From: a virus
Direction: 5' to 3' (one strand)
IMG/VR virus record: IMGVR_UViG_3300018421_000015
Span: 1 to 64,000 of that record
Length of the DNA: 64,000 bases
Numbering within the stretch: the stretch's first letter is position 1; each line of letters opens with the position of its first letter. The notes under the pieces were generated by a model, which was given only the letters and a program-made list of their open reading frames with translations, did no database searches and had not been told where the DNA came from. Below are positions 18,350 through 44,267 of the stretch, piece by piece. Both the position numbers and the translations under genes were made by a program.

Positions 18350-18634
18350 ATGAATCTTCTAGAATATTTCGATGAAGAGTATTCTAAAGTTCAAAAATCT
18401 CATGGATCAATAACAGCTGCAATTCTACAAGCTAATGACATAGCTAAATCTTTAACAATTGCATACAAAAAACTTTCAGATATTAAACCAGATTTACACT
18501 CTATATCTGAAATAGAATCTGATAAGTTAGAAGAATTGCTTTCATCAATGAATAATTTTATTCGTGATTGTAAGAATTTTGCTGATGATATAGATATAGC
18601 TATCAAAGCAACTGAAGATATAAGGAGCCTTTAA
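18350..18634 (+). CDS. coiled-coil protein
   Basis: 94 aa, acidic, with heptad-like helices over most of its length. AAAGCGAGATAAC precedes the ATG. It is coupled to the WhiB gene by an ATG/TAA overlap. Function unknown. Confidence 0.6.
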   Translation: MNLLEYFDEEYSKVQKSHGSITAAILQANDIAKSLTIAYKKLSDIKPDLHSISEIESDKLEELLSSMNNFIRDCKNFADDIDIAIKATEDIRSL

Positions 18635-18993
18635 TGGACGAGACGCAATGGCGATCTTTTGCCTCCTGTAAAAATCTTGATACCTCTCTATTCTTTCCTA
18701 TTTCTATAGGTAAATATAATAAATCTGAAATCAATCAACTTCTTGATCTTTGTGATTCTTGTCCTGTTGCAGCTAATTGCTTACATGAAGCTATATCTAC
18801 TCAATCTATTGGAATATGGGCACGCACTACTAACGTTCAAAGAGAAGCTTTCTTGAAGGCTAGAGATTCCTCTAAACCCTTAACGCTAGAAGAGTGTCAG
18901 TCTTACTATGAATTTTTGAAAGATAATAAAGTTTATCCTTATACTCGGAAACACAAATTTTATACTCATAAATTTGTAGATACAAACGAGTGA
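18634..18993 (+). CDS. whiB: WhiB-family Fe-S transcription regulator
   Basis: 119 aa. The four Fe-S cysteines have WhiB spacing: Cys12, then C-x2-C-x5-C at 40, 43 and 49 (LCDSCPVAANCL). A G-I-W-A turn follows at 60-63, where WhiB proteins have G-V/I-W-G-G. WhiB proteins are essentially confined to Actinobacteria and their phages, and bind the principal sigma factor to alter transcription. This is the best host indicator in the window. The C-terminal basic tail (RKHKFYTHK) could contact DNA. Coupled to the gene before it. Confidence 0.88.
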   Translation: MDETQWRSFASCKNLDTSLFFPISIGKYNKSEINQLLDLCDSCPVAANCLHEAISTQSIGIWARTTNVQREAFLKARDSSKPLTLEECQSYYEFLKDNKVYPYTRKHKFYTHKFVDTNE

Positions 18994-20951: not shown

Positions 20952-22991
20952 ATGTCACAAGTAGATTACTCATTTGTAAAGAACTCGGAAGGTTTATTTA
21001 CCTTTCGTTCTACGGTAAATTCTTTTGGTATAGAAAATATAACAGAGAAAGATATTAATTCTTTTTATGTTAACTTTTCTAACTCAGCTCTTTTAGATAC
21101 TGGCCTTCTTCCAGTTGATGGTACAGGGATGCTTGCTTACCGTAAGGCTGATAATCATGAACAAATTGTTTATCAAATTAAGCCTGGAAAATATTATATC
21201 AACTGGGGAGCTCACGAAGGCGATTCTTCGGCTCGCACCTATTATGTAGCTCAACCATACAGAATTGTTATCGCAGATCTTCTTAATCAAAATCTACTTG
21301 GTGCTAGAACATTTTACAGCCCTTATCCTATTACCTCTCCTTCTTCTCAGCTTTACCATGTTAATCTTCCTAATATTAACTGTAAAGGTTACAGAGGTAA
21401 TGGTGTAGGCTGGATTTGTTTATATCACACTCACGATATCTCCAATCTTCCCTTTAACGAGAGACTTTCTCACATTCTTCAGAGATGTTCTGGCGTAGAA
21501 ACTTATAACGACGCCAATATGTCTGAAACTGATGGTCCTCGTTTTTATGCTGCTCATTACAATAATGATACAGAATATTCTCATCTTTGGGATCCACAGT
21601 CTTGGGAAGACTATACCGATTCTAACGGCTATGAGTGGACTTTAAATCCAGATCTTTGGATACCAGTTCTTGTTACCGACTTAGATACTCAGGATCGTCA
21701 CGATCCACAGGGCATGCCTCTGGACATTCAAACGGCCTTGCTCGGTAACTATCAGGCTTATTACACTGATACCCTAATTCCTAAGCCTGTAAATTCTATA
21801 GTTCGACATCAAATTGATTATCCAGTTGAGAAAATTCTGTCCATGTTTGTAAAAGCATATGCTAGTTCTGCTAGTGTTGGACATCATACATCTCAAGATG
21901 TTTTTTCTCAAACTCTTGAAAACAGAGAAAATCTTACTCTACAAAATTCTAATTCAGACTCTGAAGGTCTCAAGAATTGCAAGTACTGTAATCTTGAAAT
22001 AGATCCAGATATAGAATCTTGTTACAATATTCCTGATCAACCTGATCAAATAGCCTGCGATAGTTGTTGGCACGAAAACTATATACTTATTGAACCTGCA
22101 GGAGATTATTTTCCAATAGAAGATCCAAACATTTTCTATGATCAGTATATTGAAGAATGGATCCATCAACATTATATCGATGAAAACTTCAAAAAAGTAG
22201 AATGCACAAGTTGCAGTAGTGCTTACGTTGTTGCAGATCTTCCTCTTTATGAAGACTCTCGTTTCTACTTTCCTCTTACAGAAGACCTTTCTCCAATTTG
22301 CTACTCTTGCATTCCTAGTAACAGTAACCAGGATACTAAATGCAGTGTTTGTTCAACTGTTGTTCCTGACCCAACCAAATATTCTGTAAATTCGTATTCT
22401 GGCCACTATTTTTGCAATGGATGCTGGATAGTTGCTCCGCCCATAATTAAGAATTCTGAGTCTCATGAACTTCTTAAATGTGCTTGTGGTGAAGAATATT
22501 CTTTTGATGAAATGCAACTATATAAGAATGAACATTTTAACTTTAATTCTTATCCTAGTTCTTTCAATAAAACCCAAACGCATATCTTTAGTCAAGATGA
22601 TGGTTATATCATACCTTCTGGTATGGAACCAGATCCTGATGAAGAAGATCCTGATTCTGTAAGCTACTCAGTTATGTATAAAGAAGAAGAACTGTTTGAT
22701 AAAATAGTTCAATCTTTCTTTTTAGATTTACCTAATGGAAACTTTTCTTACCATTCAATTTTAGTAAAAACTTTATTCCTTTGTTCCAATTGCAGTGATC
22801 ATATTGATGACATTGTAAACAAGCATAAGGCAAAAGATCCCTCTTCTGCTTGGTATCCTCCTCCTATCAGCACATATCTTTTCTTCAAAACTTATTCAGA
22901 AGTTTTTGATTACGATAAAGATAAATTCATTTCATACTTAGCTAATTCTAATATTAGCTTTTCTTTTACCTATGGAATAAGTCCATTTTGA
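20952..22991 (+). CDS. PRTRC-B-like protein with four double CxxC zinc modules
   Basis: 679 aa. The N-terminal part (about 1-300) follows PRTRC system protein B: a strand with YYVAQPYRIVI, then ARTFYSPYP, and S-Q-L-Y-H-V-N-L-P-N-I with G-W-I-C-L about 13 residues later. The C-terminal half holds four pairs of C-x-x-C knuckles: CKYC/CDSC, CTSC/CYSC, CSVC/CNGC and a CACG/CSNC pair, suggesting serial zinc-ribbon or RING-like modules. Position directly before the JAMM and E1 genes suggests it works with the ubiquitin-like protein, perhaps as the target-recognising part. That role is inference. Confidence 0.65.
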   Translation: MSQVDYSFVKNSEGLFTFRSTVNSFGIENITEKDINSFYVNFSNSALLDTGLLPVDGTGMLAYRKADNHEQIVYQIKPGKYYINWGAHEGDSSARTYYVAQPYRIVIADLLNQNLLGARTFYSPYPITSPSSQLYHVNLPNINCKGYRGNGVGWICLYHTHDISNLPFNERLSHILQRCSGVETYNDANMSETDGPRFYAAHYNNDTEYSHLWDPQSWEDYTDSNGYEWTLNPDLWIPVLVTDLDTQDRHDPQGMPLDIQTALLGNYQAYYTDTLIPKPVNSIVRHQIDYPVEKILSMFVKAYASSASVGHHTSQDVFSQTLENRENLTLQNSNSDSEGLKNCKYCNLEIDPDIESCYNIPDQPDQIACDSCWHENYILIEPAGDYFPIEDPNIFYDQYIEEWIHQHYIDENFKKVECTSCSSAYVVADLPLYEDSRFYFPLTEDLSPICYSCIPSNSNQDTKCSVCSTVVPDPTKYSVNSYSGHYFCNGCWIVAPPIIKNSESHELLKCACGEEYSFDEMQLYKNEHFNFNSYPSSFNKTQTHIFSQDDGYIIPSGMEPDPDEEDPDSVSYSVMYKEEELFDKIVQSFFLDLPNGNFSYHSILVKTLFLCSNCSDHIDDIVNKHKAKDPSSAWYPPPISTYLFFKTYSEVFDYDKDKFISYLANSNISFSFTYGISPF

Positions 22992-23037
22992 GCATTCAGA
23001 AACAAGGATCTAATACACTAAATATTATAGGAGTATA

Positions 23038-24744
23038 ATGTCAACTACAGCCACACAAGAGATCACTCTTGACGATCTCAATCACTTCTGGACTGCCGAA
23101 GGACTTCCTGTCTTTTATGCAGACAGAGATGATATTTGCGATATTGTTGAGGGCATGGGATTTAGTATATACTACCTTCTTGCCGATTATCAAAAGAAGG
23201 TAAATCCCCCTGCTAACAACAATAAGCATACCAACAACGGTAAGCCGCAAACCCCACCTGCGCCAACCTACACCCATGAAACGCAATGGTTCAAAGTTGT
23301 TAATAACTTTGTTGGCAGAAGTGTTTCCAAATGTGCTCCTTCTCTTCCTGATAATTTTATTTCTGTTGAAGAATTAGCCCATTACAAAATGCCTGCCATT
23401 CCTCATGTTATTGTTGACAAGCTTGATCAGTTTTTCCGTCTTGTTGACGCTCAGCATGGTACTGAGTCAATTGTAATGCTAACATATGACATTACTAAAG
23501 AGGGCCCTGAAGGCTGGGGTATTCTTGTTCCAGATCAAGAGAACACAGCAGCTCACTGCAATTATGATCCTCACAGTATTGCAGAGATGAAGCCCGATGA
23601 TGTAATGATTGTTGGCTCTGTCCACAGTCATCCTCATATGGCAGCTTACGCATCTGGCACAGATCATGCTGATCAAGCTGACTTTGATGGTATTCACATT
23701 ACTTATGGTTGGCAGAAAAGTGTAAATAACGGAGCTACCCAGTATCACATAGAACTTCAAATGGCTGGTCAAGCTTATACACTTAAGCCTGAAGATGTTT
23801 TTGAAGATTTTGTGATACAAAAAGAGCCCGATCCTGACGTTGTTGAGTGGAGTTCTAAAGTAAAAAAAGAACTCCCCCTGCCAACAAAGGCGGGGGTCTA
23901 CACACCACAGGATCTGTCCGCCCCGCAAATTCTTCTGCAAGCTCCTATCAGTCTTGGTACGGGCCTACCAAAAGCTAACGATTATCAAGACCTTCCTTGG
24001 GTCAAGCACTTGAATAATATTTATTCAAGTTGTGATGTACCTGAAGGTTCTATACTGATTGCAGAAGTCGATGCACAAACTACTCAAAGCCAGTATTGTC
24101 CCTCTTGTGACACTTATCTTGACTACTATTGTATTTACGATGGTTTCTGTGACACTTGTTTTATTCCCATATCTGCTAAAGGTACGTCAAGACAAGAAGT
24201 AATGCAGCTTGCCAACATGTACGCTAAAAGCGTCAACATGTCTAATGACGTACCTGTGTATCTTGTTGGTTATGATTCTTATGAATCTGGTCGCCAGCTT
24301 TTTGTTATGGCTATTTGCGAAACAAGTCTTTTGTCTGAAATTCCTTCTTCAACTTCTTCTACCGATGAAGTTGACGAACAAGATCACGCAAATAGTTTTG
24401 ATCCTGACTATCTTATTTGCTGTGGTGTCCACAAAGACGACTACGCATCGTGTTATTGCGATCATCAAATAACATACAATGATTATCTCGATTATGAAGC
24501 TCTTATCCAAACTGAAGATCAGAGCATTTATCTAGATAAAAACGTAAACTGCATTGGATGTGAACACTATTACTCTCCTGTTTGCAGCCAAATGCGTAGC
24601 CTACTTGTTGACTGGATCAAAGATCCCAAGAGCCATGTAGAGTTAATAGTCTCTGGTACAGTCAATAAGATAGATGGTCGTGGCTGTGAACAATTTGAAC
24701 AGTATTACGTACCACTAGATGAAAGTAGTTATTATTATGAGTAA
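23038..24744 (+). CDS. JAMM/MPN metalloprotease (PRTRC-type deubiquitinase-like)
   Basis: 568 aa. A complete JAMM signature, H-x-H-x7-S-x2-D, is formed by His196, His198, Ser206 and Asp209 (in VGSVHSHPHMAAYASGTD), with Glu143 as a plausible catalytic acid upstream. The enzyme class removes ubiquitin-like proteins from targets or trims their C-termini. The N-terminus (1-85) carries a Pro/Asn linker. The C-terminal half has two Cys-rich regions (CPSCDTYLDYYC...CDTC and CCGVH...CYCDH...CIGC), probably zinc-binding. It overlaps the E1-like gene by 8 nt. Confidence 0.85.
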   Translation: MSTTATQEITLDDLNHFWTAEGLPVFYADRDDICDIVEGMGFSIYYLLADYQKKVNPPANNNKHTNNGKPQTPPAPTYTHETQWFKVVNNFVGRSVSKCAPSLPDNFISVEELAHYKMPAIPHVIVDKLDQFFRLVDAQHGTESIVMLTYDITKEGPEGWGILVPDQENTAAHCNYDPHSIAEMKPDDVMIVGSVHSHPHMAAYASGTDHADQADFDGIHITYGWQKSVNNGATQYHIELQMAGQAYTLKPEDVFEDFVIQKEPDPDVVEWSSKVKKELPLPTKAGVYTPQDLSAPQILLQAPISLGTGLPKANDYQDLPWVKHLNNIYSSCDVPEGSILIAEVDAQTTQSQYCPSCDTYLDYYCIYDGFCDTCFIPISAKGTSRQEVMQLANMYAKSVNMSNDVPVYLVGYDSYESGRQLFVMAICETSLLSEIPSSTSSTDEVDEQDHANSFDPDYLICCGVHKDDYASCYCDHQITYNDYLDYEALIQTEDQSIYLDKNVNCIGCEHYYSPVCSQMRSLLVDWIKDPKSHVELIVSGTVNKIDGRGCEQFEQYYVPLDESSYYYE

Positions 24745-25489
24745 ACGATTTGTAGTTGTAGGCGCTGGCGGTGTTGGTACCTGGCTATGCGCTGGTCTAG
24801 TACGCTTACTTGAGTGGAAGTATCCAGGCTCTGCTCTTATTATTGTAGATGGAGATACTTATGAAGAAAAGAATAAAGAGCGTCAAGACTTTACTAAAAT
24901 TGGAAACAAAGCCGTTGTCAAAGCAGCGGAACTCACTCCGCAATTCCCTAACACAACCATTATACCTGTGCCAAAGTGGGTGGTCGGAGACGACTTTAGT
25001 GGCGTCGCAGACGAAGATTCACCAAAGATAAAGGCCACTGATCTTATCCATGAAAACGACGTTGTTTTTGCGGTTGTTGATAACTTTGCTGCTCGTGCTA
25101 TACTTTTTGATGCCGCAAGGAAGCTCAATAACATTGACGTTTTTACAGGCGGTAATGATGATGAATTGTTTGGTTCTATTTATCATTATCAAAAGCGTGA
25201 TGGATTAGAAATCACTTGTCATCCAGAAGAGTTCCATCCTGAATATCTTAACCCACCAGATAAGAATCCAGGTGAACTCTCTTGTCAAGAACGATCAGAA
25301 ATAGAAGGTGGCACTCAGCTACTAGCTACTAACATGGCGGTAGCTGCCTTCATTCTTGGTCGTGTACAAAAAACAATAGTGTCAAATCAAAACCCTGATG
25401 AGACAGAGGTCTTCTTTGATCTCGGTCTTGGTAAGGCGGAGCCTTTCAATAGGACTCATGCTCATCTTAATGAACCATCATTAGTATAA
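24737..25489 (+). CDS. ThiF/E1-like adenylyltransferase (PRTRC ThiF type)
   Basis: 250 aa. A Rossmann start VVVGAGGVG (6-14), acidic strand IIVDGD (35-40), an Arg in ERQDF (about 49-52) and VVDNFAAR (113-120) form the ATP-binding core of the ThiF/MoeB/E1 family. Cys183 in GELSCQERSEIEGG is a candidate catalytic cysteine. Such enzymes adenylate the C-terminal Gly of ubiquitin-like proteins, and one is encoded 12 nt downstream. The start at 24737 is chosen for its position after GAAAG; an ATG at 24719 is also possible. Confidence 0.88.
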   Translation: MSKRFVVVGAGGVGTWLCAGLVRLLEWKYPGSALIIVDGDTYEEKNKERQDFTKIGNKAVVKAAELTPQFPNTTIIPVPKWVVGDDFSGVADEDSPKIKATDLIHENDVVFAVVDNFAARAILFDAARKLNNIDVFTGGNDDELFGSIYHYQKRDGLEITCHPEEFHPEYLNPPDKNPGELSCQERSEIEGGTQLLATNMAVAAFILGRVQKTIVSNQNPDETEVFFDLGLGKAEPFNRTHAHLNEPSLV

Positions 25490-25501
25490 TAGGAGAATAC
25501 A

Positions 25502-25753
25502 GTGGAAGCTACAAGCAACAATTCACAGCCCACCCCTGCAACTGGTATGGCGAATCTTCGCTATGGCGTTTACAATCAGCCAAGCAACATCGCTGGTAAA
25601 ACTGTCAAGGAAGTTCGTGATCAGTTCAGCAAGATTTGGGGTATCCCATCTGATGCTGTCGCATACTGCGGCAAGGAAAAGATGGATGAGAACGCCACAA
25701 TCGAGCCTGGTCAGAACATCGAGTTCCATCGCCGTGCTGGCGAGAAGGGCTGA
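25502..25753 (+). CDS. ubiquitin-like protein (PRTRC-C-like)
   Basis: 83 aa from a GTG start with AGGAG upstream. A disordered N-terminus is followed by a beta-grasp pattern: LRYGVYNQPSN, then a helix (TVKEVRDQFSKIWGIP), two short strands (AVAYCGKEKM) and IEPGQNIEFHRRAGEKG. The end G-E-K-G matches the G-x-K-G end I recall for PRTRC protein C, so it may need processing or uses its terminal Gly directly. Codons are C/G-rich compared with both neighbours, implying abundant synthesis. A long hairpin follows. Confidence 0.8.
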   Translation: MEATSNNSQPTPATGMANLRYGVYNQPSNIAGKTVKEVRDQFSKIWGIPSDAVAYCGKEKMDENATIEPGQNIEFHRRAGEKG

Positions 25754-25773
25754 GATTTCCTCCAACAGGGAAT

Positions 25774-25809
25774 TTAGGGGGGAGTAGGCTAATACCTGCT
25801 CCCCCCTAA
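25774..25809 (+). promoter_or_regulatory. hairpin between the ubiquitin-like and AAA+ genes
   Basis: TTAGGGGGGAG (25774-25784) pairs with CTCCCCCCTAA (25799-25809), extended inward by AGG/CCT. No U-tract follows, so it probably limits read-through or stabilises the upstream mRNA, keeping the small protein in excess over the ATPase. Confidence 0.6.
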
Positions 25810-25846
25810 CTAAACTCAAACCCAGATTATTAGATTGGTTATTATT

Positions 25847-27430
25847 ATGATTAACAAAATTAAGCTGGGACTACCGAATCTCTGGTTGCAAGATCCAGAT
25901 TTTATTCGCTCAATCGATATAATAGTTTCGGCGGTTCCTGACCGAAACTATTATTACATCGATAGCATTAAAGGCTTCTGTAAATATGTAGACAATGAGT
26001 GGAAGCCAGTACTCGTACAAAATCCTCGCTCTGACGAAGAAGGCGAAAGCGATTACATAACCACTGACCATCCAGAACTTGCTAACGATTACCTGGATAA
26101 TTCCGATGAGCTCAATGTAACTGTCTTCAAGTTTATTGCCGGTGTCGATGCCGAAAGACTTCAGTACAGAATACCTATGCTGTACGATGCCCTTTCTAGG
26201 TATCGCCAAGCATTTTGGTCAGATTCTAAAACCGATCTTCCTCAACAAGTTATTTACATTAGTCCCCAAGAATGTCCAGAACCTCTAACGCCCTGCTTTG
26301 AAGTTCTGGAAAGTGTTTATCCTAACCTGTCAGAACTTGCAACAGTTCTTACACACATTAAAGACCGTGCTCCTAATTCTTTTGATGAAAACAATATCAA
26401 AGAAATTGCTCGCGCAGGTCTAGGCTTTAGTGAAACCGAATTCATATTTGCATGCCTTAATGTCATCAGCGAAGAAAAAACTTTGACCGCTAAGCATGTT
26501 AATGATATTAAAATGTCTAATATTAAGTCTCGTGGTATTCTTGAAATTATCAACCCCAATATAACCTTCGACAACATTGGTGGTCTTGATAATATTAAAG
26601 ATATCATTAGGCGCACTTCAGTTCTTCGCCAAAACCCTCAGCTTTCTGAGGACTACGGCATAACTCCTATCAGAAGAATGCTTATGGTTGGTGTTCCTGG
26701 TACTGGTAAATCAGCAATCTGTCAGGCAACTGCTGCTGAGCTTAATCTTGATCTTGCTCGTACTGGTATTGCACAAGTTATGAACAAGTATATTGGCCAG
26801 TCAGAAGCCAACATGCGCGCTGTATTTCAGCAGATCAAACTCATGAATCCTTTATGCGTTTGGATTGACGAGTTTGGCCGTGATCTTTCAGGTAGTGGAG
26901 ACGGTGCCGACAGTGGCACCACTGACCGTGTTCATGGTGAGTTCTTAACAGGTCTTCAAGAACTTCCTGAAGAATCATTCCTTTTGTGCGCAGCTAATGA
27001 GCTTCATTCTCTTAAGCCAGAAATGTTACGCGCAGACCGATTTGACAAGATATTCTTTGTCGGTCTGCCATCACATTCCGAGCGTAGCCATATCTTTAAG
27101 ATTCATCTTAGCTCAATCAAAAACCAAGAGTATGATTATGACGCGCTTGCTGAATCTTCTGCCTTTATGACCGGTGCAGAGATAGTTTCTCTTATCAAAG
27201 AAACTAAGTTCTATGTTGTTTCTGAACATGCTCGTCCAATCAATACCAACGATATTCTCCAACGCATTCCTACCATCCGTAATACTATCTGGCGTAAGCA
27301 TCCCGATACTGTTAAAAGCATGTATCAATATGCTCTTGAACAGTGGGATTGGGCCTCGACAGAACAGATGGAAGATGCTAAGATAATTCTTGGTAGAAAT
27401 AAGTCTTCAACTAAACTATCATTTGCGTGA
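25847..27430 (+). CDS. Ycf46-type AAA+ ATPase
   Basis: 527 aa from ATG 25847. Residues about 20-240 resemble the N-terminal part of Ycf46-type ATPases, including the stretch before F-D-N-I-G-G-L-D. The AAA+ module has Walker A GVPGTGKS, Walker B CVWIDEF and a second region of homology with R-A-D-R-F-D arginine finger(s). A hexameric unfoldase or remodeller is expected. Next to a ubiquitin-like conjugation set, a Cdc48-like role on tagged proteins is plausible but unproven. The ribosome site is weak, and the gene follows the hairpin. Confidence 0.85.
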   Translation: MINKIKLGLPNLWLQDPDFIRSIDIIVSAVPDRNYYYIDSIKGFCKYVDNEWKPVLVQNPRSDEEGESDYITTDHPELANDYLDNSDELNVTVFKFIAGVDAERLQYRIPMLYDALSRYRQAFWSDSKTDLPQQVIYISPQECPEPLTPCFEVLESVYPNLSELATVLTHIKDRAPNSFDENNIKEIARAGLGFSETEFIFACLNVISEEKTLTAKHVNDIKMSNIKSRGILEIINPNITFDNIGGLDNIKDIIRRTSVLRQNPQLSEDYGITPIRRMLMVGVPGTGKSAICQATAAELNLDLARTGIAQVMNKYIGQSEANMRAVFQQIKLMNPLCVWIDEFGRDLSGSGDGADSGTTDRVHGEFLTGLQELPEESFLLCAANELHSLKPEMLRADRFDKIFFVGLPSHSERSHIFKIHLSSIKNQEYDYDALAESSAFMTGAEIVSLIKETKFYVVSEHARPINTNDILQRIPTIRNTIWRKHPDTVKSMYQYALEQWDWASTEQMEDAKIILGRNKSSTKLSFA

Positions 27431-27437
27431 GGTGAGC

Positions 27438-28064
27438 ATGTCAGAAATATTAGATAACATTGACGATTTTATGAGTTCTTTAGATGAAGACTCAGTTCCC
27501 GTCAATAAAGATACCAAAGAATATCAAAGCGATCTTTATAAGAAGTGGTTTAGATCTAAATCTCAATCTGGATTCTTAGCTATTCGTCCTTGGTACGAAG
27601 CGCTAAAATTCAAAATTGATATTGGTAAAACTTCTTCTGATGGAAAACTTCTTAGCAGCACAAATGTTTTTGTTGATGCAATCGATTTCGGTGCCTACCT
27701 AAAGAGCATTGTTAGCGGCACCGCACAGAACAACTATCCTGCAAATGCTAAGATGGGTGTTCCAACTCCTGAAGGTTTTGTATCTTACGGAGGTGCCGTT
27801 GTAGATAACAAACCTGTCTCTAGAATATTTAAGGCGCATCACTGGCAATCAAACGATGAATATGATCCTAATTCATTCGTTTGGAAATGTGGTCATTTTG
27901 CTGCTCGCAAGTCTGACTCTGGCGCCTTTATTCCAGACATGAAGCAGCTTATATCAGCTGACATGATCAAGGTTACTCGTCAAGATGTTTGCTCAATATC
28001 GTACATTGTCGATATGGCAATATCATCTTACGTTGCTAACAATACGGATTGGTACGAAAAATGA
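27438..28064 (+). CDS. hypothetical protein in the ubiquitin-like cassette
   Basis: 208 aa from ATG 27438 (GAGGTGAGC upstream). An acidic N-terminus leads to a strand-rich region, LAIRPWYEALKFKIDIG and NVFVDAIDFGAYL, resembling an OB-like or PRTRC-associated beta domain. Not assigned. One conserved-looking KCGHFAARKS motif holds Cys and His. Overlaps the next gene by 4 nt. Confidence 0.6.
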   Translation: MSEILDNIDDFMSSLDEDSVPVNKDTKEYQSDLYKKWFRSKSQSGFLAIRPWYEALKFKIDIGKTSSDGKLLSSTNVFVDAIDFGAYLKSIVSGTAQNNYPANAKMGVPTPEGFVSYGGAVVDNKPVSRIFKAHHWQSNDEYDPNSFVWKCGHFAARKSDSGAFIPDMKQLISADMIKVTRQDVCSISYIVDMAISSYVANNTDWYEK

Positions 28065-28444
28065 CAGACATTCCCCAAATTGATGAGGCAACAGTTAAGG
28101 CTGTTATGTCTATTGTTGAAGAAGTAATCGGAAGTGCTGTTGTTAGATTTTCTGAAAAACTTCAAGAATTAGAAAATCGTATTAATTCTATTGATGAGCA
28201 AATTGCTACCTTGATCATTGGTTATGGCGAACAAGCTGTATTCATGGAAGCTCTTGTTGCACAAATGGCTTTTGCTACAGATCAGGAAAGAACTTCTTTC
28301 AACAATTCTCTTACAGAGGCTCGTAAGAAAATGCTGGAGGTGATGCGTGATGCCTCAGCAGCAAACCTGGCCGATGAAGATCCAAACCTTGCCTCAGCCG
28401 TTGAGGACCTGGTTAACCAAAAGCTACTTGACTCAAACGACTGA
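28061..28444 (+). CDS. coiled-coil protein
   Basis: 127 aa. Residues 10-60 and 75-100 have heptad character (SEKLQELENRINSIDEQIAT). Probably a helical scaffold. Overlaps the preceding stop (ATGA). Confidence 0.6.
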   Translation: MTDIPQIDEATVKAVMSIVEEVIGSAVVRFSEKLQELENRINSIDEQIATLIIGYGEQAVFMEALVAQMAFATDQERTSFNNSLTEARKKMLEVMRDASAANLADEDPNLASAVEDLVNQKLLDSND

Positions 28445-28640
28445 TAGTTCTTGTGTTCTTTGTCTAGAAAAAGATAGCTATTTAATATTAGATAATTTTT
28501 CTTATCTGTCATTAATTTATTCTGCAGTGCATTCAATATATCCAGATGTAACTTCTTTGCATCTTGTTGAATCTCCGTTTGTTGAACTTTTAAAAACAGG
28601 AAAACTATCTCTAGATTCGCTAGAGGTACTAAGAGATTAG
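28428..28640 (+). CDS. hypothetical protein with CxxC
   Basis: About 70 aa if started at TTG 28428. It contains SSCVLCLEKDSYL, half of a zinc knuckle, and a helical end. The start is uncertain because the frame is open further upstream inside the previous gene. Confidence 0.4.
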   Translation: MTQTTDSSCVLCLEKDSYLILDNFSYLSLIYSAVHSIYPDVTSLHLVESPFVELLKTGKLSLDSLEVLRD

Positions 28641-28650
28641 GTGTTTATAA

Positions 28651-29157
28651 ATGGTAATTTCAAAATTCAATGATCTAAATGATTTTATTTCTTACGTGAA
28701 TTCCAAAATTGAAACTCACTTTTTACCTCTTGATGTTCATGCGGATCCTGATCTCTTATTAACTATTCATACATGCGATATGGATTCTAACAATTATAGT
28801 TTTTATTACAAAGGCAGTAAAACTGACCTTAAAAATAATGTTTTTAATGATCTTCTTCCATCTCTAAGAGATTCTCTTTTGCAAGCTCTGATTACCAGAA
28901 TGCACACCATACATTCCCATTATCTTGTTCCTAATATAATTTCTTATTATGATATTTACAATGATCTAGAAAATGACGATGTTGATTACTCTAATTATTT
29001 TTCAGATATTAAATCCGTAATAAGCAAATTAGCTAATGACAATAAATTTTATAGAAAAAATATAGTTGATTTAAATGTAGAGATTGTTGAACTGCGCAAA
29101 CAAAACGCAGACCTACAACAGCAATTGCAAATTAAATCTATTTCTACTTGGGGATAA
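28651..29157 (+). CDS. hypothetical protein with C-terminal coiled coil
   Basis: 168 aa. An alpha/beta N-terminal part is followed by a coiled coil near the end (VDLNVEIVELRKQNADLQQQ). Not recognised. It sits within the PRTRC-like region. Confidence 0.55.
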   Translation: MVISKFNDLNDFISYVNSKIETHFLPLDVHADPDLLLTIHTCDMDSNNYSFYYKGSKTDLKNNVFNDLLPSLRDSLLQALITRMHTIHSHYLVPNIISYYDIYNDLENDDVDYSNYFSDIKSVISKLANDNKFYRKNIVDLNVEIVELRKQNADLQQQLQIKSISTWG

Positions 29158-29159
29158 TT

Positions 29160-30122
29160 ATGTTTAAATATGATACAAGTTTCGATACAGACGAAACTTA
29201 TTCTATGCGTCAAAGCTCTACCTATAATCAAACCTATTTCACTGCTAACATATTTAGGGATAACCAATCTCTTAATGCAAATTTCTATCTTAACGAAATG
29301 TCAGAACTTCCTGAAAATGTTTTGATATATGATTATTTTGGTTCTGGAGAAATGTATTATAGTCCCAATGGAATATCTTCTCCTATTGTTTCTGTATCCA
29401 AAAATTCTCTTGATTACATGTACAAGTGGGTTACCGAAACTTCATCCAATGCTAGCGAGTATGCAAATTCGGTATTATTTTTAGATAAAGATTATTCTGA
29501 AATATTAACTACAACATTTTCTCTTGAAATATTTTCTTGCTGGGTTAAGCCAGCATATGGATTTGAGAATTATCTTTTACTTCATTATATGCCCAATCTT
29601 TTTAATTATGAGTTAAACGATAACTCAGTTAACTCTTCTCCTCCTATTTGTTCTCACGTTACATATGTTTCTCCATCCAAAGAGTACATATCAGATCATT
29701 ATCAGTTTGCAAACATGATTGATGGATATCCTTCATGTTCTCATCCTTCTTTTGCTGACAAGCACATGCCTTGTCACTTCTTTGAAAATTTCTCTCTTTG
29801 TCCTATGCATGAATCTAAATCTGAAATTATTACTCAAGTTTCAGTAAATCATGCAAACACAGATAATTCTACTGTATTTTCTGTAAGAAAAATTCATCTT
29901 TCAAATATGGAATATTCTTATTCCGTATTTAACAATACAGAAAATCAAACTGTCTTTAATGTTACTGTTCCACCAGAAACACCTGAGCTAGAAGTTTCTT
30001 CTCATGTAACTCAACTTCTTGAAGAACTTCTTGATTCATACAAAGAAGACACCATTCAAGTTTTACCAGATAGTCTCCAGCCGGAAAGCAAACAACCTTT
30101 TATAGCCTCTGCATTAAGCTGA
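29160..30122 (+). CDS. possible diverged PRTRC-B-like protein
   Basis: 320 aa from ATG 29160. Two features recall PRTRC-B: LPENVLIYD.. followed by YYSP, and LLLHYMPNLFNYE with PICSH after it (compare L-Y-x-x-P-Y-F-N-V plus G-x-I-C). A Cys/His-rich segment (CSHPSFADKHMPCHF...LCPMH) may bind metal. The match is weak and the gene could be unrelated. Confidence 0.45.
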   Translation: MFKYDTSFDTDETYSMRQSSTYNQTYFTANIFRDNQSLNANFYLNEMSELPENVLIYDYFGSGEMYYSPNGISSPIVSVSKNSLDYMYKWVTETSSNASEYANSVLFLDKDYSEILTTTFSLEIFSCWVKPAYGFENYLLLHYMPNLFNYELNDNSVNSSPPICSHVTYVSPSKEYISDHYQFANMIDGYPSCSHPSFADKHMPCHFFENFSLCPMHESKSEIITQVSVNHANTDNSTVFSVRKIHLSNMEYSYSVFNNTENQTVFNVTVPPETPELEVSSHVTQLLEELLDSYKEDTIQVLPDSLQPESKQPFIASALS

Positions 30123-30129
30123 GTTAACT

Positions 30130-31683
30130 ATGTCAAATTTTCCTAATTTTACAGTTCTTACTACAGATTCAGATAACAACCGCTATCAGAAAAACTCTTT
30201 TTACAATGTTTTTCTTCGTGAGAAAAATGATGTTTATTATTATCGCGACACTATAACTAACTCTATTGCAAAATATTTATCCAACCAGGATACTCAATTT
30301 CCTTTAGACTGTTATCCTATTGATGCAGAAAATCGACATGGTCTTACCATTCGTGAAATTATTTCTGGTAATTTTCTTACAGATTTACTTACTGATTCTT
30401 TGTATTTAAATTCGAAACAGAATCTTACCTCGATTCTCTCCAAGGCCTCGCACATTAATCTCACAAAATTACCTTTGTTTTTTAGCGTAGAGTTAAATCA
30501 TGGATATTCTTATGATTACCAAGATGTTATAACTCAATCTTTAAACTACAATAACAGCTTTGCCTTCAATGATTCGACAGACATAAATCCTACATCTTTA
30601 AGGTACTTTTCTTCAAATGGTACAATCTATGTAGAACGTCCTCCTTTTAAGGCTATAGTTAATTATAAGCCTGTTAGGGCTTCTGGTACAACAAAACATA
30701 TTGAATCATATGAAATATGGGTTCCCTGGACTTTAACTAGAATTTCTACTTCAGAATATCACCATCTATCTGATAGATCTTTTAGGATATATTTTTCATC
30801 TTCTCCATTAACTGATACTTCCGATGATCAGTATGTTCCTTGTATGTTTCCTAATTCTTATACTGATGGAACAATCTGTTTTTCAAATAGTCTTCAAGAA
30901 ATACCTGATTTTGAATCCCAGTCTATTAGATATATATATTCTATGATGATAAATGAATATATATCTGGTGGATGGAATCTTGACCTTGGTCTTCCTGTTC
31001 TTCAAAATTCTGTTTTAAATCCTTCAGATACTTATAAAGAATATTGTAGACCTACTTACAATTCTCTTCTTGCTAGGTTTCCTGACTTAACTGACTCTAA
31101 GATTGCTACCTTAAAGTCACAATCTCTTTCTTCTTCTGGTTCTGCTCACTCAAAATATTTCTTCAAAATGATGTCTAGCTTTAATCTTGAAGAGACTTTA
31201 GATTTTTATAGTTCATTTGAACGTATGTCTTTTGATAAGATTAATTCTACGAATCAATCCTTATCTTTCTCCAATGATATAACTGGTTATATTCGTTCAA
31301 GGAATCATCATCACGAAGTTTTAGCAGGATACACTAATGTCTCTGAGTTAGACAAGAAAATATTTATTACTTGCTTTAACCATAATAATGAAGACTCTGT
31401 TTATAAAGATACTAATAAGTTTATTAGATCTATAAATAAAACAAAAATCTCTTCCACTTGGAACGATTCAGTAGATTATACTGATGAATTTTCTTCTATT
31501 TTTCAAGAAGAACTTTCTAATATGATGAATATGGAACATAGTTTTATATATTTGTATTACGATAAATCATCTGGAGATTATGAAATTCATAACTCTTCAA
31601 ATTCATCAATTGAGACAATTGTCAGTATGGATATTATTTCAGATATCCTTATTGATCAAAGTTTAAAAGAGATTTCAATATGA
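30130..31683 (+). CDS. PRTRC-B-like protein
   Basis: 517 aa. The middle (about 150-290) follows PRTRC protein B in order: GTIYVERPP, a VPWTLTRI strand, FRIYFSSSPLTD and VPCMFPNSYTDGTICFS. In PRTRC-B the same order is W-W-R-P-P, P-G-L-V-F, L-Y-V-W-A-L and A-P-Y-F-N-V..G-x-I-C. The C-terminal 200 residues are unassigned. Overlaps the next gene by 4 nt. Confidence 0.6.
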   Translation: MSNFPNFTVLTTDSDNNRYQKNSFYNVFLREKNDVYYYRDTITNSIAKYLSNQDTQFPLDCYPIDAENRHGLTIREIISGNFLTDLLTDSLYLNSKQNLTSILSKASHINLTKLPLFFSVELNHGYSYDYQDVITQSLNYNNSFAFNDSTDINPTSLRYFSSNGTIYVERPPFKAIVNYKPVRASGTTKHIESYEIWVPWTLTRISTSEYHHLSDRSFRIYFSSSPLTDTSDDQYVPCMFPNSYTDGTICFSNSLQEIPDFESQSIRYIYSMMINEYISGGWNLDLGLPVLQNSVLNPSDTYKEYCRPTYNSLLARFPDLTDSKIATLKSQSLSSSGSAHSKYFFKMMSSFNLEETLDFYSSFERMSFDKINSTNQSLSFSNDITGYIRSRNHHHEVLAGYTNVSELDKKIFITCFNHNNEDSVYKDTNKFIRSINKTKISSTWNDSVDYTDEFSSIFQEELSNMMNMEHSFIYLYYDKSSGDYEIHNSSNSSIETIVSMDIISDILIDQSLKEISI

Positions 31684-32783
31684 TTGTTATAACACCAGAT
31701 ATTCAAAATTCCTACTATGATAACCGCCTGTACAAAACTCCCGTAAAAGATAATCCTGCGGCTTATAGTAGGCTGAAGAATTTTATGAACTTATTTGAAT
31801 TTATTCCAAATACTTCTATTCTATCTGATACTCTTCTTCCTCCTGGAATACTTTACGCTGACAATTCTGTTGTTGTTTACGAAAAGCCTCCTTGTGTTAA
31901 AAATTATTTTCACATACATGCTCAAGTAGATTCTATTAACGAAGATAATATTGATGAACAATCTATATATTCTTTGCCCATTCCTTGGCAGGTTTATGTA
32001 GTAAAATACGGTTCTCATTCTGATGAAATGTACATAGAAGATGTATACATGTACTTTTCTAACTCAAGTATACAGTCTTTTGATCAGCCTGTATATCTTC
32101 CCCCTATAACTAATTTCTATGCTAACGGCAAGCTTTGCCGACCATATTTTGATAGCATGTCTGATGTTATTGTTCCTAACAATAATCTTCCTGGGCTTGT
32201 TGAACTTTCCTACAATTGGGTTTGGAATTCTGGCTACAACGCTGACCTTACAGAATCTGTTATGCAATCTTTTGTATGGGGCTATGCTAGATCTAAAAAG
32301 TTATTTCCCGATATTAGCAGTTCTATAAGGTACAATCCCTTAACAAATTATTATTGTTCAAACGAAGCTTCTCATAACTTTTTCCGTGCGTGGGAGAAAA
32401 TTTCTATCGACAATATTCTTTTTACAAACTGGTTTCCTCCTCATACCGCTGAAAGATATCACGTATATTACAACAATGTCTTTAATAACAATCGTGTTGA
32501 TTGGAGTCTTCATAATATGTCTGCTCTTTCTATTTCTGATGCATGTTGTGAAGACTGTCAGTATTACGACGAAGACGGAGATCCTGTAGAAGATACTTGT
32601 AGCTACGAAGATTGCTCTTGCCACTCTGAAGTTGTTTTTAACATTGATAATACTTATCAACTTCTTCGCGATTGTGGCGCCTTTGATTTCACTTCTTCCC
32701 TTAGGAAAATGATCTCTACTATTAATACTGGTTCTGTATCTCTTGATTTTAATTTCAGAGATCCTCTATTAATTGCCGGTTAA
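31680..32783 (+). CDS. PRTRC-B-like protein
   Basis: 367 aa, the clearest PRTRC-B match: LPPGILYADNSVVVYEKPP, then LPIPWQVYVVKY, YMYFSN and PVYLPPITNFYANGKLC. The C-terminus adds a Cys cluster (CCEDC...CSYEDCSCH) likely to bind zinc. With the genes at 20952 and 30130 it forms an expanded set around one JAMM/E1/ubiquitin-like core. Confidence 0.65.
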   Translation: MIVITPDIQNSYYDNRLYKTPVKDNPAAYSRLKNFMNLFEFIPNTSILSDTLLPPGILYADNSVVVYEKPPCVKNYFHIHAQVDSINEDNIDEQSIYSLPIPWQVYVVKYGSHSDEMYIEDVYMYFSNSSIQSFDQPVYLPPITNFYANGKLCRPYFDSMSDVIVPNNNLPGLVELSYNWVWNSGYNADLTESVMQSFVWGYARSKKLFPDISSSIRYNPLTNYYCSNEASHNFFRAWEKISIDNILFTNWFPPHTAERYHVYYNNVFNNNRVDWSLHNMSALSISDACCEDCQYYDEDGDPVEDTCSYEDCSCHSEVVFNIDNTYQLLRDCGAFDFTSSLRKMISTINTGSVSLDFNFRDPLLIAG

Positions 32784-33151: not shown

Positions 33152-33388
33152 ATGGCGGAGCATACAAATACTAGTGATTCAGATTATAAACTAGTTGAAG
33201 ATGTACCGGATATGGTATCTACTGACACTGTCACCGATATCAAGAATGGTATATATAATTTGTTTATAAATCTTTATCGCTCACAAATACCTCAATTTGG
33301 ACCTGAAGGTGCAATGAGAGAATCAATAGAATTTTTAGAAGAAATAGCCTTTAACTTTAAGGCTGCAGTAGATAACAAGGAGACATAA
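33152..33388 (+). CDS. hypothetical protein
   Basis: 78 aa, acidic N-terminus and helical C-terminus. Not recognised. Overlaps the SSB start (TAATG). Confidence 0.55.
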   Translation: MAEHTNTSDSDYKLVEDVPDMVSTDTVTDIKNGIYNLFINLYRSQIPQFGPEGAMRESIEFLEEIAFNFKAAVDNKET

Positions 33389-33825
33389 TGCTTGATCCTC
33401 AAAATATGGTAAGCATTTCGGGTGGCTTAGTTGCTGATCCCGAAATGGTTGCTAGTGGTAAGATCATGAAATCACGTATTGGCGTTGACTATTCAGGTTC
33501 TGAGAAAGATTCAGATAACAACTCAGGCTATTTTGATGTTGTCTACTACCTCAAGGACAAAGATGGTTACACCTGCAAGAACGCAGGTTTTGTTGATAAT
33601 CAGATTTCTAGCGGCAAAATGAAGAAGGGTACCAGCGTTTCAATTGTTGGTCGCCTTGTTCAGGAGCGCTGGAAGCAAGATGGCAGCTCTCGCTCAAAGG
33701 TTGTTATTGTTATTGAGCACATGTCGTATGGTGCTCGTGCAGGTAAGTCCTCTGATTCCTCATCAGCTTCGTCTTCAAACAGTTCTTCAACTGATAACTC
33801 AGCTTCAATTCCTTCAAGCTTCTGA
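33388..33825 (+). CDS. ssb: single-stranded DNA-binding protein
   Basis: 145 aa. An OB-fold pattern runs from VSISGGLVADPEM to SIVGRLVQERW and VVIVIEHMSYG. It is followed by a Ser/Asn-rich tail ending in S-I-P-S-S-F, a variant of the usual D-D-D-I-P-F tip that recruits partner proteins. The acidic residues are mostly missing. C-rich codons suggest strong expression. It coats ssDNA during phage replication. Overlaps the UDG gene by one base. Confidence 0.85.
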   Translation: MLDPQNMVSISGGLVADPEMVASGKIMKSRIGVDYSGSEKDSDNNSGYFDVVYYLKDKDGYTCKNAGFVDNQISSGKMKKGTSVSIVGRLVQERWKQDGSSRSKVVIVIEHMSYGARAGKSSDSSSASSSNSSSTDNSASIPSSF

Positions 33826-35681: not shown

Positions 35682-35862
35682 GAAGAAAAAAAGGAATAAG
35701 AAAAGACATTACTTGTCCGAATGGGATGGACATTTCTTTGGAAACTCTTCATATGGCTATGGTGGATTCTCTCTTTACTCTACCAAGCCGGAAGATATTC
35801 ACAAAATTGCCACAGAAGTTTTCGGACAAACTTACTATGTAGACTTCACTGAATCTTCCTGA
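35674..35862 (+). CDS. hypothetical basic protein
   Basis: 62 aa with a Lys/Arg-rich start (MAKKKKRNKKRH) and a Gly/Tyr-rich middle. Not recognised. Its stop codon TGA is part of the TGATATAAT promoter-like motif. Confidence 0.5.
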   Translation: MAKKKKRNKKRHYLSEWDGHFFGNSSYGYGGFSLYSTKPEDIHKIATEVFGQTYYVDFTESS

Positions 35863-35868
35863 TATAAT
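35860..35868 (+). promoter_or_regulatory. extended -10 promoter TGATATAAT, probably leaderless
   Basis: A perfect extended -10 lies 7 nt before ATG 35876, so a transcript would begin at or next to the start codon. No separate ribosome site exists. Leaderless starts are frequent in Actinobacteria. Confidence 0.55.
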
Positions 35869-35875
35869 ATTGGGG

Positions 35876-36193
35876 ATGAAAAAAGTCGTATATTCCCCTT
35901 CTAATAAAAAAAATATTGTACATACAAAAAAAGATTCTTCTGTAACTAATAAGAAAATCTACACTATAGTATGGCGAGATGCCTATTCGAGCGAAGACAT
36001 ATGGTATTCAGAAGATGAACACGATAATTCTGACTACTTAGTAGAAACAACAGGATACCTAATAGAATCTCCTGAATCTAATCCTAACTACTACACAATA
36101 GCTTCTACCATAACTCAGTCTGGGAACTTTTGCTCTGTAATTAACATACCAAAAGATATGGTAGTCACAAAAACAAGACTAGTTAGGAATTGA
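35876..36193 (+). CDS. hypothetical protein
   Basis: 105 aa, not recognised. The ATG at 35876 is favoured by the promoter position; a TTG at 35870 is in frame. Basic N-terminus, then a strand-rich body with IYTIVWRDAYSSEDIWYSE. Confidence 0.55.
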   Translation: MKKVVYSPSNKKNIVHTKKDSSVTNKKIYTIVWRDAYSSEDIWYSEDEHDNSDYLVETTGYLIESPESNPNYYTIASTITQSGNFCSVINIPKDMVVTKTRLVRN

Positions 36194-36194
36194 C

Positions 36195-36416
36195 ATGAAC
36201 CAACCGTGTAATATAGAAGATGCTCTCGCACACGCAGTTCCAGGACCAGTAACATCTTATATTGTCGTTGCCGCTTACATAGATGAATACGGTGAAACAA
36301 TACTGTACGCCGATTCGCCAAACAACCAACCTATACATTCCTCAATGGGATTGTTAGAATTTGGAAAAATATACTTACATAATAAAGTATCAAGAATTAT
36401 TGATGATATTATATAA
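36195..36416 (+). CDS. hypothetical protein
   Basis: 73 aa, not recognised. A small alpha/beta domain is likely (VTSYIVVAAYIDEYGETILYAD). Starts directly after the preceding stop. Confidence 0.5.
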   Translation: MNQPCNIEDALAHAVPGPVTSYIVVAAYIDEYGETILYADSPNNQPIHSSMGLLEFGKIYLHNKVSRIIDDII

Positions 36417-36436
36417 GTATACATGTAGGAGTCCAA

Positions 36437-41974: not shown

Positions 41975-42799
41975 CCACCTATTTGCTATCCATTCCAACA
42001 TTCTAGAGAGCCAATTTCCTTTTCCATCTTTTTTTTCAAGAAGTTCATCTTTATCTCGCTGCTCTTTTTTGTATCTAGATTTTTGATTAATTGGAATAAA
42101 CGTAGATTTAAAACCACGCTGAGAAAGAAGATCGTATATACTACCGTCACCCCAAATGTAATTAATCCCTTTTTGCCTAGGAATAGGTACCACATGCTGC
42201 ATAATTTCACCTATTTCTATAGTAAATTCTTTATCAGTCAATATGTTCAAAACTATATTTGCATGATGGTAATAATCGGTATTTACTAATGCTGGCAAAA
42301 GTGTATAGTTTGGATTAGGTTCCCAAAGTGGAGGAAGGAAAATGGAAGACCACCCTGGTGCCGTTTTAAATAGCCAGGGATTTATTATTTTAATATAATT
42401 TGCTCTCTCAAGTTTTCTTACCCTAGTCACTGGGCATTCTCCACTTTGATGAAAACCAAAACCTTCAACATGAAATTCGTGATTACCAGCAATGTCAAAT
42501 CTACTTTCCCAAAATGAACCATCTGGAGATGGTCTGAAATGCAGTCTTGCCCACATCGGTATATTGAAACCAAGAGATATATAATCAGCTGTCCCAGAAC
42601 ATCTTCTCAATGCACCATCTCCAGAATCTAAATCTTTCCACCAATCTGGCCAATTTCTCCAGTTATCAATTGGCATTACTTCAGGGTCATAGAGCATTTG
42701 TGTATTCGGAGTAATTAAAACCTCACCTGGTTTTACTTTTGGTATATTATAAAAAGAATTAGCTGTCTCTATTTTTAGTTCTCTCAATGGCTTCTCCAT
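41966..42799 (-). CDS. DUF6065-like protein
   Basis: 277 aa. The block PWLFKTAPGWSSIFLPPLWE, then LVNTDYYHHANIVLNIL and IGEIMQHVVPIPRQ, matches what I recall of DUF6065. Its role is unknown. Its start overlaps the halogenase by about 40 nt, implying translational coupling and a joint function. The last 50 residues are basic. Confidence 0.65.
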   Translation of the reverse strand: MEKPLRELKIETANSFYNIPKVKPGEVLITPNTQMLYDPEVMPIDNWRNWPDWWKDLDSGDGALRRCSGTADYISLGFNIPMWARLHFRPSPDGSFWESRFDIAGNHEFHVEGFGFHQSGECPVTRVRKLERANYIKIINPWLFKTAPGWSSIFLPPLWEPNPNYTLLPALVNTDYYHHANIVLNILTDKEFTIEIGEIMQHVVPIPRQKGINYIWGDGSIYDLLSQRGFKSTFIPINQKSRYKKEQRDKDELLEKKDGKGNWLSRMLEWIANRWSR

Positions 42800-44267
42800 G
42801 ATCTATCATCTTTAAATTAATTAGATTAGAATTTGTCTCGCTTAGATGTTGAGTTGCTATTCTTCTGGATAGGTGTGCATTCAGCGAAACCGTTGCGGAT
42901 TCACTATTTAGAACTCCTTGACCCTGGGCAACGTGCCAGAAATGAGGTATAAAGAAGAGCTCAAATCCATTAGCAGTTATATCATGATCTTCGGGAGGTC
43001 GTTCTGACCATATTTCCAAAAGCTTCTGTAGCATTAGAGGCTTAGGTCTATTTTGTTGATCTAACCACATCTTAGTGTCATTTCTGTCAGAAATATAATG
43101 TAAACAAATCATACTCAAAGCATTTTCCATAACTTCATTCATTATCTTATTATATTCTCTTATGGAGAATTCTGTCTTTTCGTTAAAGTTTGCTATATAT
43201 GAGCATAGTAATCTGGCCTGCTGTATCCCTATTGATATGGTTGTAGCCTCTAAAGGTTCGATGAAGCTATACGATAGGCCTATTGATACACAGTTTTTTT
43301 GCCAAGGTTCGCTATAATAGCCGGGTCTGAACTTAATGAATCTAGGATTTTCTATTTCAATACCATGAAACTCTTCAGCCTCAATAATCGCCTCCTCTTC
43401 AGTTATATAAGAGGAAGAGAAAACATATCCATTACCTTTTCTTTCTTGAGTTGGTATTTCCCACATCCACCCAGCATTCATGCTGATAGCTCTTGTGTAT
43501 GGGTGAATCTTTCCAAATATGTCTTTATCAGTTTGAAAAACTAGAGCTGTATCACAAGGTAAGTATTCGCTAAATGAATTAAACTCCACATTCTGCATTT
43601 TACTGGACAGCACTCTTGCAAATCCTGTTGCATCTATAAAAAAATCTCCAGATATTTTACTATCGAAACCATTAACTTTTATATATTTTATATGACCATT
43701 TGAACCCTTATTTACAGATTCAATTTCACCTTCAACAAATCTTATGCCCATGTTATTGGCAAAGTTCTTAAGATATTTGTTGAGAAGAAATGTATCAAAA
43801 TGATATTGATTTGTTCCAAGATGAGTTTTATCTGGCTCTGTATCATCTTCACTAATCCCATCTATAACCTGATCCTCAATCATGCCTTTCCAGGAAAGTG
43901 AATTTGTTAAAAGGATTTCATTTTCTAGCAAAAAGCTATAGGTTGCATAGAAGGAGTTTCGTTTAATTCCTGTACCAGAAACAGAATGGATATACTTTGG
44001 CGTATGATTATTCCATCCCTCAAACATGATTCCATATTTGTGGGTGACGCCTGCAAATTTAATCATATCATCTACATTTATTCCAACAAAATCCTGAAAC
44101 CATCTCCAATGTTCCGTAGACCCCTCTCCTACGCCTATAATAGGGCTTTTTTCGGAAAAGCATACGGTTATGTCATATAAGGGGAATGTTTTTTTTAGAA
44201 TTATTGCAGTTGTCAATCCCGATGTACCAGCTCCGGCGATGACGATATGTTTTTGATCTATCTTCAT
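42759..44267 (-). CDS. flavin-dependent (tryptophan) halogenase
   Basis: 502 aa. FAD-binding GAGTSG at 12-17, VGEGS at 46-50, candidate catalytic Lys77 in VTHKYG, and the diagnostic W-x-W-x-I-P at 267-272 (WMWEIP). FIEPLEATTIS matches the second flavin region. The enzyme class uses reduced FAD, O2 and halide to form hypohalous acid passed to the Lys. The substrate is unknown; free tryptophan, a small aromatic or a protein-bound residue are all possible. No flavin reductase is seen here. It lies between 2OG oxygenases and a DUF6065 gene, 2 nt from its neighbour. Confidence 0.9.
   Translation of the reverse strand: MKIDQKHIVIAGAGTSGLTTAIILKKTFPLYDITVCFSEKSPIIGVGEGSTEHWRWFQDFVGINVDDMIKFAGVTHKYGIMFEGWNNHTPKYIHSVSGTGIKRNSFYATYSFLLENEILLTNSLSWKGMIEDQVIDGISEDDTEPDKTHLGTNQYHFDTFLLNKYLKNFANNMGIRFVEGEIESVNKGSNGHIKYIKVNGFDSKISGDFFIDATGFARVLSSKMQNVEFNSFSEYLPCDTALVFQTDKDIFGKIHPYTRAISMNAGWMWEIPTQERKGNGYVFSSSYITEEEAIIEAEEFHGIEIENPRFIKFRPGYYSEPWQKNCVSIGLSYSFIEPLEATTISIGIQQARLLCSYIANFNEKTEFSIREYNKIMNEVMENALSMICLHYISDRNDTKMWLDQQNRPKPLMLQKLLEIWSERPPEDHDITANGFELFFIPHFWHVAQGQGVLNSESATVSLNAHLSRRIATQHLSETNSNLINLKMIDHGEAIERTKNRDS

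Follow-up and report, generated by a model that had tools for sequence, protein, structure and literature searches.

The DNA analysed here (the window) is a stretch of 64,000 nucleotides from a virus record of 86,299 bases, IMG/VR IMGVR_UViG_3300018421_000015. Positions 20952 to 32783 of the window carry a phage gene cassette related to the PRTRC (ParB-related, ThiF-related cassette) systems, which encodes a predicted ubiquitin-like modifier, an E1-like ThiF enzyme, three proteins that resemble prokaryotic E2 enzymes at the profile level, a JAMM isopeptidase and an AAA+ ATPase (Table 1). The open reading frames (ORFs) are all encoded on the plus strand, are tightly packed, and have the coordinates given by an earlier inspection of the letters alone (the sequence-only reading), which had proposed a PRTRC-like system that attaches and removes a small protein. 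Single-sequence searches gave no convincing family match for cassette proteins other than JAMM, ThiF and the AAA+ ATPase.

The relatives used for comparison were 45 IMG/VR loci retrieved by ThiF searches, distributed over about 40 contigs, the longest of 268 kb, that carry the cassette. The order E2a, JAMM, ThiF, modifier, AAA+, g224, g127, variable genes, g517, g367 and a MerR-like gene is kept in these contigs, and g224, for which Pfam, NCBIfam and PHROG searches gave no family match, lies directly 3' of the AAA+ gene wherever both are present. Identity to the window proteins amounts to 54–86% for ThiF, a range that leaves out a nearly identical record of this virus, and mostly to about 35–60% for E2a and JAMM. 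The ratio of nonsynonymous to synonymous substitution rates (dN/dS) is approximately 0.03–0.14 for E2a, JAMM, ThiF, the modifier, AAA+ and g367 (locus L003 compared with L004) and 0.35 for g517 (L003 compared with L005), being higher in the two downstream E2-like genes g517 and g367 (0.14–0.35) than in the five core genes. The genes compared are under purifying selection. Because the gene order recurs in about 40 contigs and dN/dS is low, the cassette is not a product of chance. Searches by tblastn with ThiF and g367 found no match among 50,697 reference phages. The sole match in the genome collection was a 10-kb contig (PXAT01000157.1; L026) in an Ectothiorhodospiraceae metagenome-assembled genome, which carries the phage cassette and is probably a phage contig binned with that genome. 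One 268-kb contig, IMGVR_UViG_3300042868_009074, holds two different cassette copies (L041 and L043) about 215 kb apart and is perhaps a chimeric assembly.

Table 1. Features of the cassette and of the downstream peptidase site (positions in the window).
Feature	Position	Strand	Remarks
E2a	20952–22991	+	679 aa; PRTRC-B/E2-D-like domain (by profile) at about 1–290; Cys-rich region with CxxC pairs; C-terminal tail
JAMM/JAB isopeptidase, PRTRC A-like	23038–24744	+	568 aa; C-terminal CxxC...CxxC element
E1-like ThiF enzyme	24737–25489	+	ORF opens at 24719, ATG at 24737 preferred; candidate catalytic Cys codon 25283–25285
Predicted ubiquitin-like modifier	25502–25753	+	83 aa; GTG start; C-terminus EFHRRAGEKG
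AAA+ ATPase, CDC48/PAN class, PHROG 8638	25847–27430	+	ORF opens at 25835
g224	27438–28064	+	Conserved cassette protein; 39–72% identity across relatives
g127	28061–28444	+	Small conserved protein after g224; in nearly all related loci
g168	28651–29157	+	Variable, weakly conserved; predicted C-terminal coiled coil (weak coiled-coil family matches)
g320	29160–30122	+	Variable; about 25% identity in about half of related loci
g517	30130–31683	+	Second E2-D-like protein (by profile); invariant Cys250 in PN-x-Y-x-DG-x-I-C
g367	31680–32783	+	Third E2-D-like protein (by profile); invariant Cys153 in NFY-x-NG-x-LC
Site of the HslV/proteasome-like peptidase of relatives	35682–36436	+	Peptidase absent in this phage

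The ThiF protein matches PF00899 above the cut-off (8.2e-13), and its best NCBIfam model is PRTRC_ThiF (6.9e-7). The GxGGxG motif and residues D37/D39, N45, R48, K57, D114 and R119 (counted from base 24740) are invariant where the column is present in 29–30 homologues, and the candidate catalytic Cys182 is invariant in 30. The JAMM protein matches Prok-JAB above the cut-off (2.5e-6) as well as PRTRC_A (3.4e-4), and its glutamate and HxHx7SxxD motif are complete, with E143, H196, H198, S206 and D209 invariant in 32 relatives. Profiles were also built from plasmid-derived PRTRC proteins, and with these profiles unrelated pairs score below 4%. By hhalign, the E1 aligned to PRTRC ThiF with a probability (P) of 99.4% (E = 1.5e-21) and the JAMM protein to PRTRC A with P = 95% (E = 2e-8). 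Both enzymes had been recognised by their motifs in the sequence-only reading, and the profile comparison adds their placement in the PRTRC ThiF and A families.

The AlphaFold model of the 83-residue modifier, calculated with 28 homologues (predicted local distance difference test score, pLDDT, of 77), displays a β-β-α-β-β-β arrangement with strands at residues 17–21 and 24–28, a helix at 35–46, further strands at 53–56, 59–61 and 72–76, and disordered ends. A Foldseek search with the model retrieved ubiquitin variants, SUMO and NEDD8 with a probability of 1.00 and a template-modelling (TM) score of about 0.6. The ubiquitin/β-grasp fold, which the sequence-only reading had assigned to this protein, is thus confirmed at the level of the predicted structure. 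The tail EFHR(R/K)xGEKG is near-invariant among homologues, the terminal KG is conserved, and the sequence resembles the tails RAAGAKG and RAVGTKG of PRTRC C proteins. In the homologues of four loci (L009, L010, L012 and L026) two additional residues, SL, NI or SK, follow GEKG, which would fit trimming by a protease. A Pfam search of the modifier gave no Prok_Ub match.

No clear E2 gene had been seen in the sequence-only reading, whereas profile comparison points to three, namely E2a, g517 and g367. They are regarded as E2-like because PRTRC protein B is the Pfam 'Prokaryotic E2 family D' (Prok-E2_D). The g517 and g367 proteins are paralogous (P = 99%). Individually they aligned to PRTRC B with P = 68% (E = 4.6e-5) and P = 47.5%, respectively, and matched no other PRTRC protein; the pooled profile reached P = 94% (E = 9e-8), with column-shuffled controls at or below 0.13%. 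E2a aligned to g367 (P = 95%, E = 2.6e-8) and occupies the position of PRTRC B in the order B-A-ThiF, and can be described as E2-D-like by profile. These comparisons assign g517 and g367 directly, and E2a through them, to the PRTRC B/Prok-E2_D superfamily. A conserved Cys follows a PN...G motif in all three proteins (Cys156 in E2a, Cys250 in g517 and Cys153 in g367). Cys250, which aligns with the conserved Cys of PRTRC B, and Cys153 are each found in 28 of 28 homologues, and both Cys144 and Cys156 of E2a in 34 of 34. A scan of 12 related records with Prok-E2_D gave matches at E ≤ 1 in six. When coordinates were checked, the two matches in G008 proved to lie in the genes g517 and g367, and those in the divergent relative L058 in its B-like genes, of which one passes the cut-off (9.3e-9) and another scores 4.6e-4. 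A RING finger was considered for the Cys-rich region of E2a and is not claimed, because the matches were weak and two relatives do not have this region.

The AAA+ ATPase, also noted earlier, matches PF00004 (1.1e-23) and phrog_8638 (7.4e-65), has CDC48 (1.1e-33) and PAN as its best NCBIfam matches, and carries Walker A, Walker B and the arginine-finger motif RADRFD. In related phages its gene follows the modifier gene and precedes g224 and g127. A Proteasome-family scan of the relatives further revealed an HslV-like protein of roughly 203 residues that starts with MTTI and has Asp and Lys at the positions expected of an N-terminal nucleophile (Ntn) hydrolase. Its gene lies 3.5 kb downstream of the cassette and, in the loci examined, stands between orthologues of the window genes at 35415 and 36437. 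It is present in 14 of the 19 records searched; the present record, its nearest relatives G005, G006 and G014, and L058 do not have it. The peptidase matches 374 viral loci. No ClpP partner was found in 12 relatives.

We consider it likely that the cassette encodes a self-contained pathway by which the phage conjugates and deconjugates a ubiquitin-like protein in infection. The E1 would adenylate the C-terminal glycine of the modifier and bind the modifier in thioester linkage through its invariant Cys, from which the modifier would pass to the invariant Cys of E2a, g517 and g367 and then onto target proteins. The JAMM protease would trim modifier precursors, such as those of relatives with two residues after GEKG, and free targets of the tag. 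The AAA+ ATPase may extract or unfold tagged proteins, acting as a Cdc48-like segregase in this phage and possibly together with the HslV-like peptidase in relatives. Sulphur transfer is the best-known role of ThiF and β-grasp proteins, and JAMM proteases also accompany sulphur carriers (PMC1779556), so that a ThiS/MoaD-like protein activated by ThiF and trimmed by JAMM might instead thiolate a cofactor, RNA or base, with the E2-like genes serving otherwise. Such a function is very unlikely given that the nearest E1 model is PRTRC_ThiF, that the cassette includes E2-D-like proteins with an invariant Cys, and that the tail ends in KG and not GG; family searches recognised no rhodanese, thiazole or molybdopterin gene in the cassette.

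Several observations weigh against the proposed conjugation pathway. The modifier matches the PRTRC C profile weakly (P = 9%), so that common descent of the two, although likely, is not shown. The record of the window gave no match to Prok-E2_D, for which g517 and g367 alone fall short, and none to the PRTRC B model. The AlphaFold model of E2a (pLDDT 79) found no E2 match in the PDB and nothing below E = 0.19 by Foldseek, PRTRC B itself having no sequence relative in the PDB either; in BFVD it retrieved one close homologue and two distant viral proteins. The E2-like proteins might accordingly be non-catalytic adaptors or substrates, with the E1 transferring the modifier directly, and RWD-like inactive E2 relatives are known in bacterial operons (PMC1779556). 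We regard this as quite unlikely for the set as a whole, as all three families keep the Cys of the E2 position without exception and inactive RWD domains lack it. Adaptor roles are suggested for some of the E2-like proteins, because the three paralogues are divergent and dN/dS is higher in g517 and g367.

Members of PHROG 8638 are also found in Rhodobacter, Agrobacterium and Mycobacterium phages, where no E1, E2 or JAB gene lies in the stretches inspected, and the downstream neighbours of the AAA+ gene in other phages show no relation to g224. This distribution, and a score of 1.2e-28 with the anti-phage ATPase IetA, would suit an independent ATPase for exclusion or host takeover that is linked to the cassette by chance. 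That arrangement is unlikely: the similarity to IetA lies mainly over the AAA+ domain, no IetS-like partner was recognised, and within the phage group the gene sits between the modifier gene and g224/g127. Of the unfoldase proposed in the sequence-only reading, the gene and its conservation in the cassette stand, and its action on tagged targets is a step that we infer for a family that also occurs in phages with no adjacent cassette. With respect to the peptidase, neither the gene nor a remnant of one was found in this phage at its expected site, and cassette genes lie beside it in only 9 of the best 80 of the 374 loci, where the DNA is often short. Because the peptidase is present in relatives and not here, tagged proteins may be degraded in relatives, whereas nothing supports this for the present phage.

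The window phage encodes six tRNA genes, a DNA helicase and a single-stranded DNA-binding protein (SSB), and the cassette adjoins SSB and small early-type genes. Because a WhiB-like regulator is encoded at 18634–18993 of the window (1.5e-13), the hosts of this group of large freshwater phages are probably actinobacteria. WhiB is also present in the lake phage Actinomycetia phage DSL-LC01, the reference phage that best matches the peptidase of the relatives. In 25 of 34 homologues E2a has a terminal -PF, which acidic residues usually precede; among the background ORFs, a set that includes the E2a genes themselves, 47 of 1,201 end in this way. The neighbouring SSB (33388–33825) ends in Phe in all 26 cases, with (I/V)P-x-x-F in the tails inspected. 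That the E2a tail and SSB share a docking tip, with docking on replication proteins, is a guess, and replication or host proteins are guessed as targets because E2a has an SSB-like acidic -PF tip and an SSB gene adjoins. A broader scheme can be drawn in which modifier, E1, several E2-like proteins (one of them fused to zinc-finger-like modules and bearing an SSB-like C-terminal tip), JAMM and Cdc48/PAN-like motor, joined in most relatives by the HslV-like peptidase, form a ubiquitin-proteasome-like phage pathway that tags and dismantles host or replication-associated proteins in infection; as a whole it is rather doubtful. On the minus strand, the window also carries a tryptophan halogenase-like gene at 42759–44267 (PHROGs 8e-94) and a Nol-like carbamoyltransferase-like gene at 55909–57363 (PHROGs 1e-106).

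Phages carry several distinct versions of such cassettes, of which that of the window's group is one. In Bacillus phage vB_BauM_KLEB27-3 (OM634661.1; L072:718–1425), a polyubiquitin-like precursor made of four tandem 57-residue Prok_Ub repeats (5e-27) adjoins E2-D-like (2.7e-4), JAB and ThiF genes. Each repeat ends in KAGVKG followed by Met, and the precursor has a 7-residue tail. Like the extra residues after GEKG in some modifier homologues, these KG/M junctions speak for the proposed pathway. In the Cytobacillus plasmid pN497-ZHONG, a di-ubiquitin-like protein (L025:2556–2897) in which the end KAGTKG occurs twice is encoded next to E2-D, JAB-like and ThiF genes. Salmonella phage Arash (L074) has an E2-D-like gene (0.024) and a ThiF gene with a JAB-like gene, recognised by motif, between them, and Vibrio phages D69, D148 and D181 carry a relative of its E2-like gene. 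The cassettes of KLEB27-3 and Arash reside in cultured phages, and the idea is therefore testable at the bench now. The E2-D-like and ThiF genes of Arash are annotated 'structural protein', a label that may mean detection in the virion. It would agree with a role in virion assembly, with structural proteins being processed or decorated by the modifier, JAMM and E1. A similar role has been proposed for TAPI/TAPK of lambda, and among lambdoid tail genes the ubiquitin-like TAPI is paired with a peptidase of the JAB type (PMC1779556). However, E1 and E2 are missing from the lambda set in that account, and the cassette of the window has SSB and early-type genes as neighbours, which makes this role highly improbable. 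Xanthomonas phage PhiXhv-12 (L073) has in a row genes for a 140-residue protein ending in SGG, an 892-residue protein that is Cys-rich at its C-terminus, and a ThiF protein, possibly a further phage modifier cassette. Two more distant viral contigs (L062 and L063) carry ThiF and JAB, the former together with a double β-grasp protein (ThiS 3e-6) and an E2-like protein.

Ubiquitin-like tagging is usually thought of as a property of eukaryotes and of a few bacterial systems, and the prokaryotic examples of such conjugation are chiefly anti-phage systems of the host and plasmid-borne PRTRC cassettes of unassigned function. A phage-borne cassette under purifying selection reverses the roles, since the virus itself would tag proteins. 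Phage cassettes also place PRTRC-type systems in the setting of an infection, where their function is testable, and the present one adds an AAA+ partner and several E2-like paralogues to them. Our literature search found no description of phage PRTRC or ubiquitin cassettes, and a 2021 survey of jumbo phages (PMC7824862) mentions neither JAB nor ThiF. A complete set with an unfolding motor thus appears not to have been described previously in phages.

A comparison with host systems shows that Bil (BilABCD) and type II CBASS Cap2/Cap3 likewise use bacterial E1, E2 and JAB proteins, with a ubiquitin-like protein in Bil. They are host-encoded anti-phage systems with other E2 families, whereas the present cassette is carried by a phage, and the PADLOC models for them gave only weak E1-E2 matches (7e-4), for the ThiF gene. 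The archaeal PAN and eukaryotic Cdc48 systems, with ubiquitin and the proteasome, resemble the cassette in having a modifier, E1, E2-like protein, JAMM and AAA+ ATPase, and most relatives add a proteasome-fold peptidase; the likeness is one of parts alone, and a shared pathway is not evidenced. The cassettes of Bacillota plasmids and KLEB27-3 share a ubiquitin-like protein with a (K/R)AGxKG tail, E2-D, JAB and ThiF, and have no annotated ParB. They differ by tandem ubiquitin repeats, by low sequence identity and in that no AAA+ gene was seen in them.

The PRTRC-type operon (type 6d) consists of ubiquitin-like, JAB, E1-like and E2-like proteins together with a helical protein (Iyer et al. 2006; PMC1779556). 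A strict PRTRC assignment was rejected. In agreement with the sequence-only reading, ParB is absent, with no ParB_N match in the 86-kb record or in 12 related records of 159–268 kb, and neither PRTRC E nor F gave a profile match among the cassette and adjacent proteins compared. The scores for PRTRC_ThiF (28.8 bits) and, with the JAMM protein, PRTRC_A (20.2 bits) are under the cut-offs of 144.75 and 101.8 bits, respectively. What holds of the earlier proposal is a PRTRC-related set for attachment and removal, located in a phage. The cassette and PRTRC systems both have JAB (A), E2-D-like (B; by profile in the cassette) and ThiF proteins, the gene order B-A-ThiF and a small β-grasp protein (predicted fold in the cassette) with a KG tail. 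By contrast, the modifier gene follows ThiF here and is upstream in PRTRC, an AAA+ ATPase is added, and there are three B-like genes, one of them with a Cys-rich extension. The cassette is therefore of a known, PRTRC-like kind, and is new in having no ParB, an AAA+ motor, three E2-like genes and a phage location.

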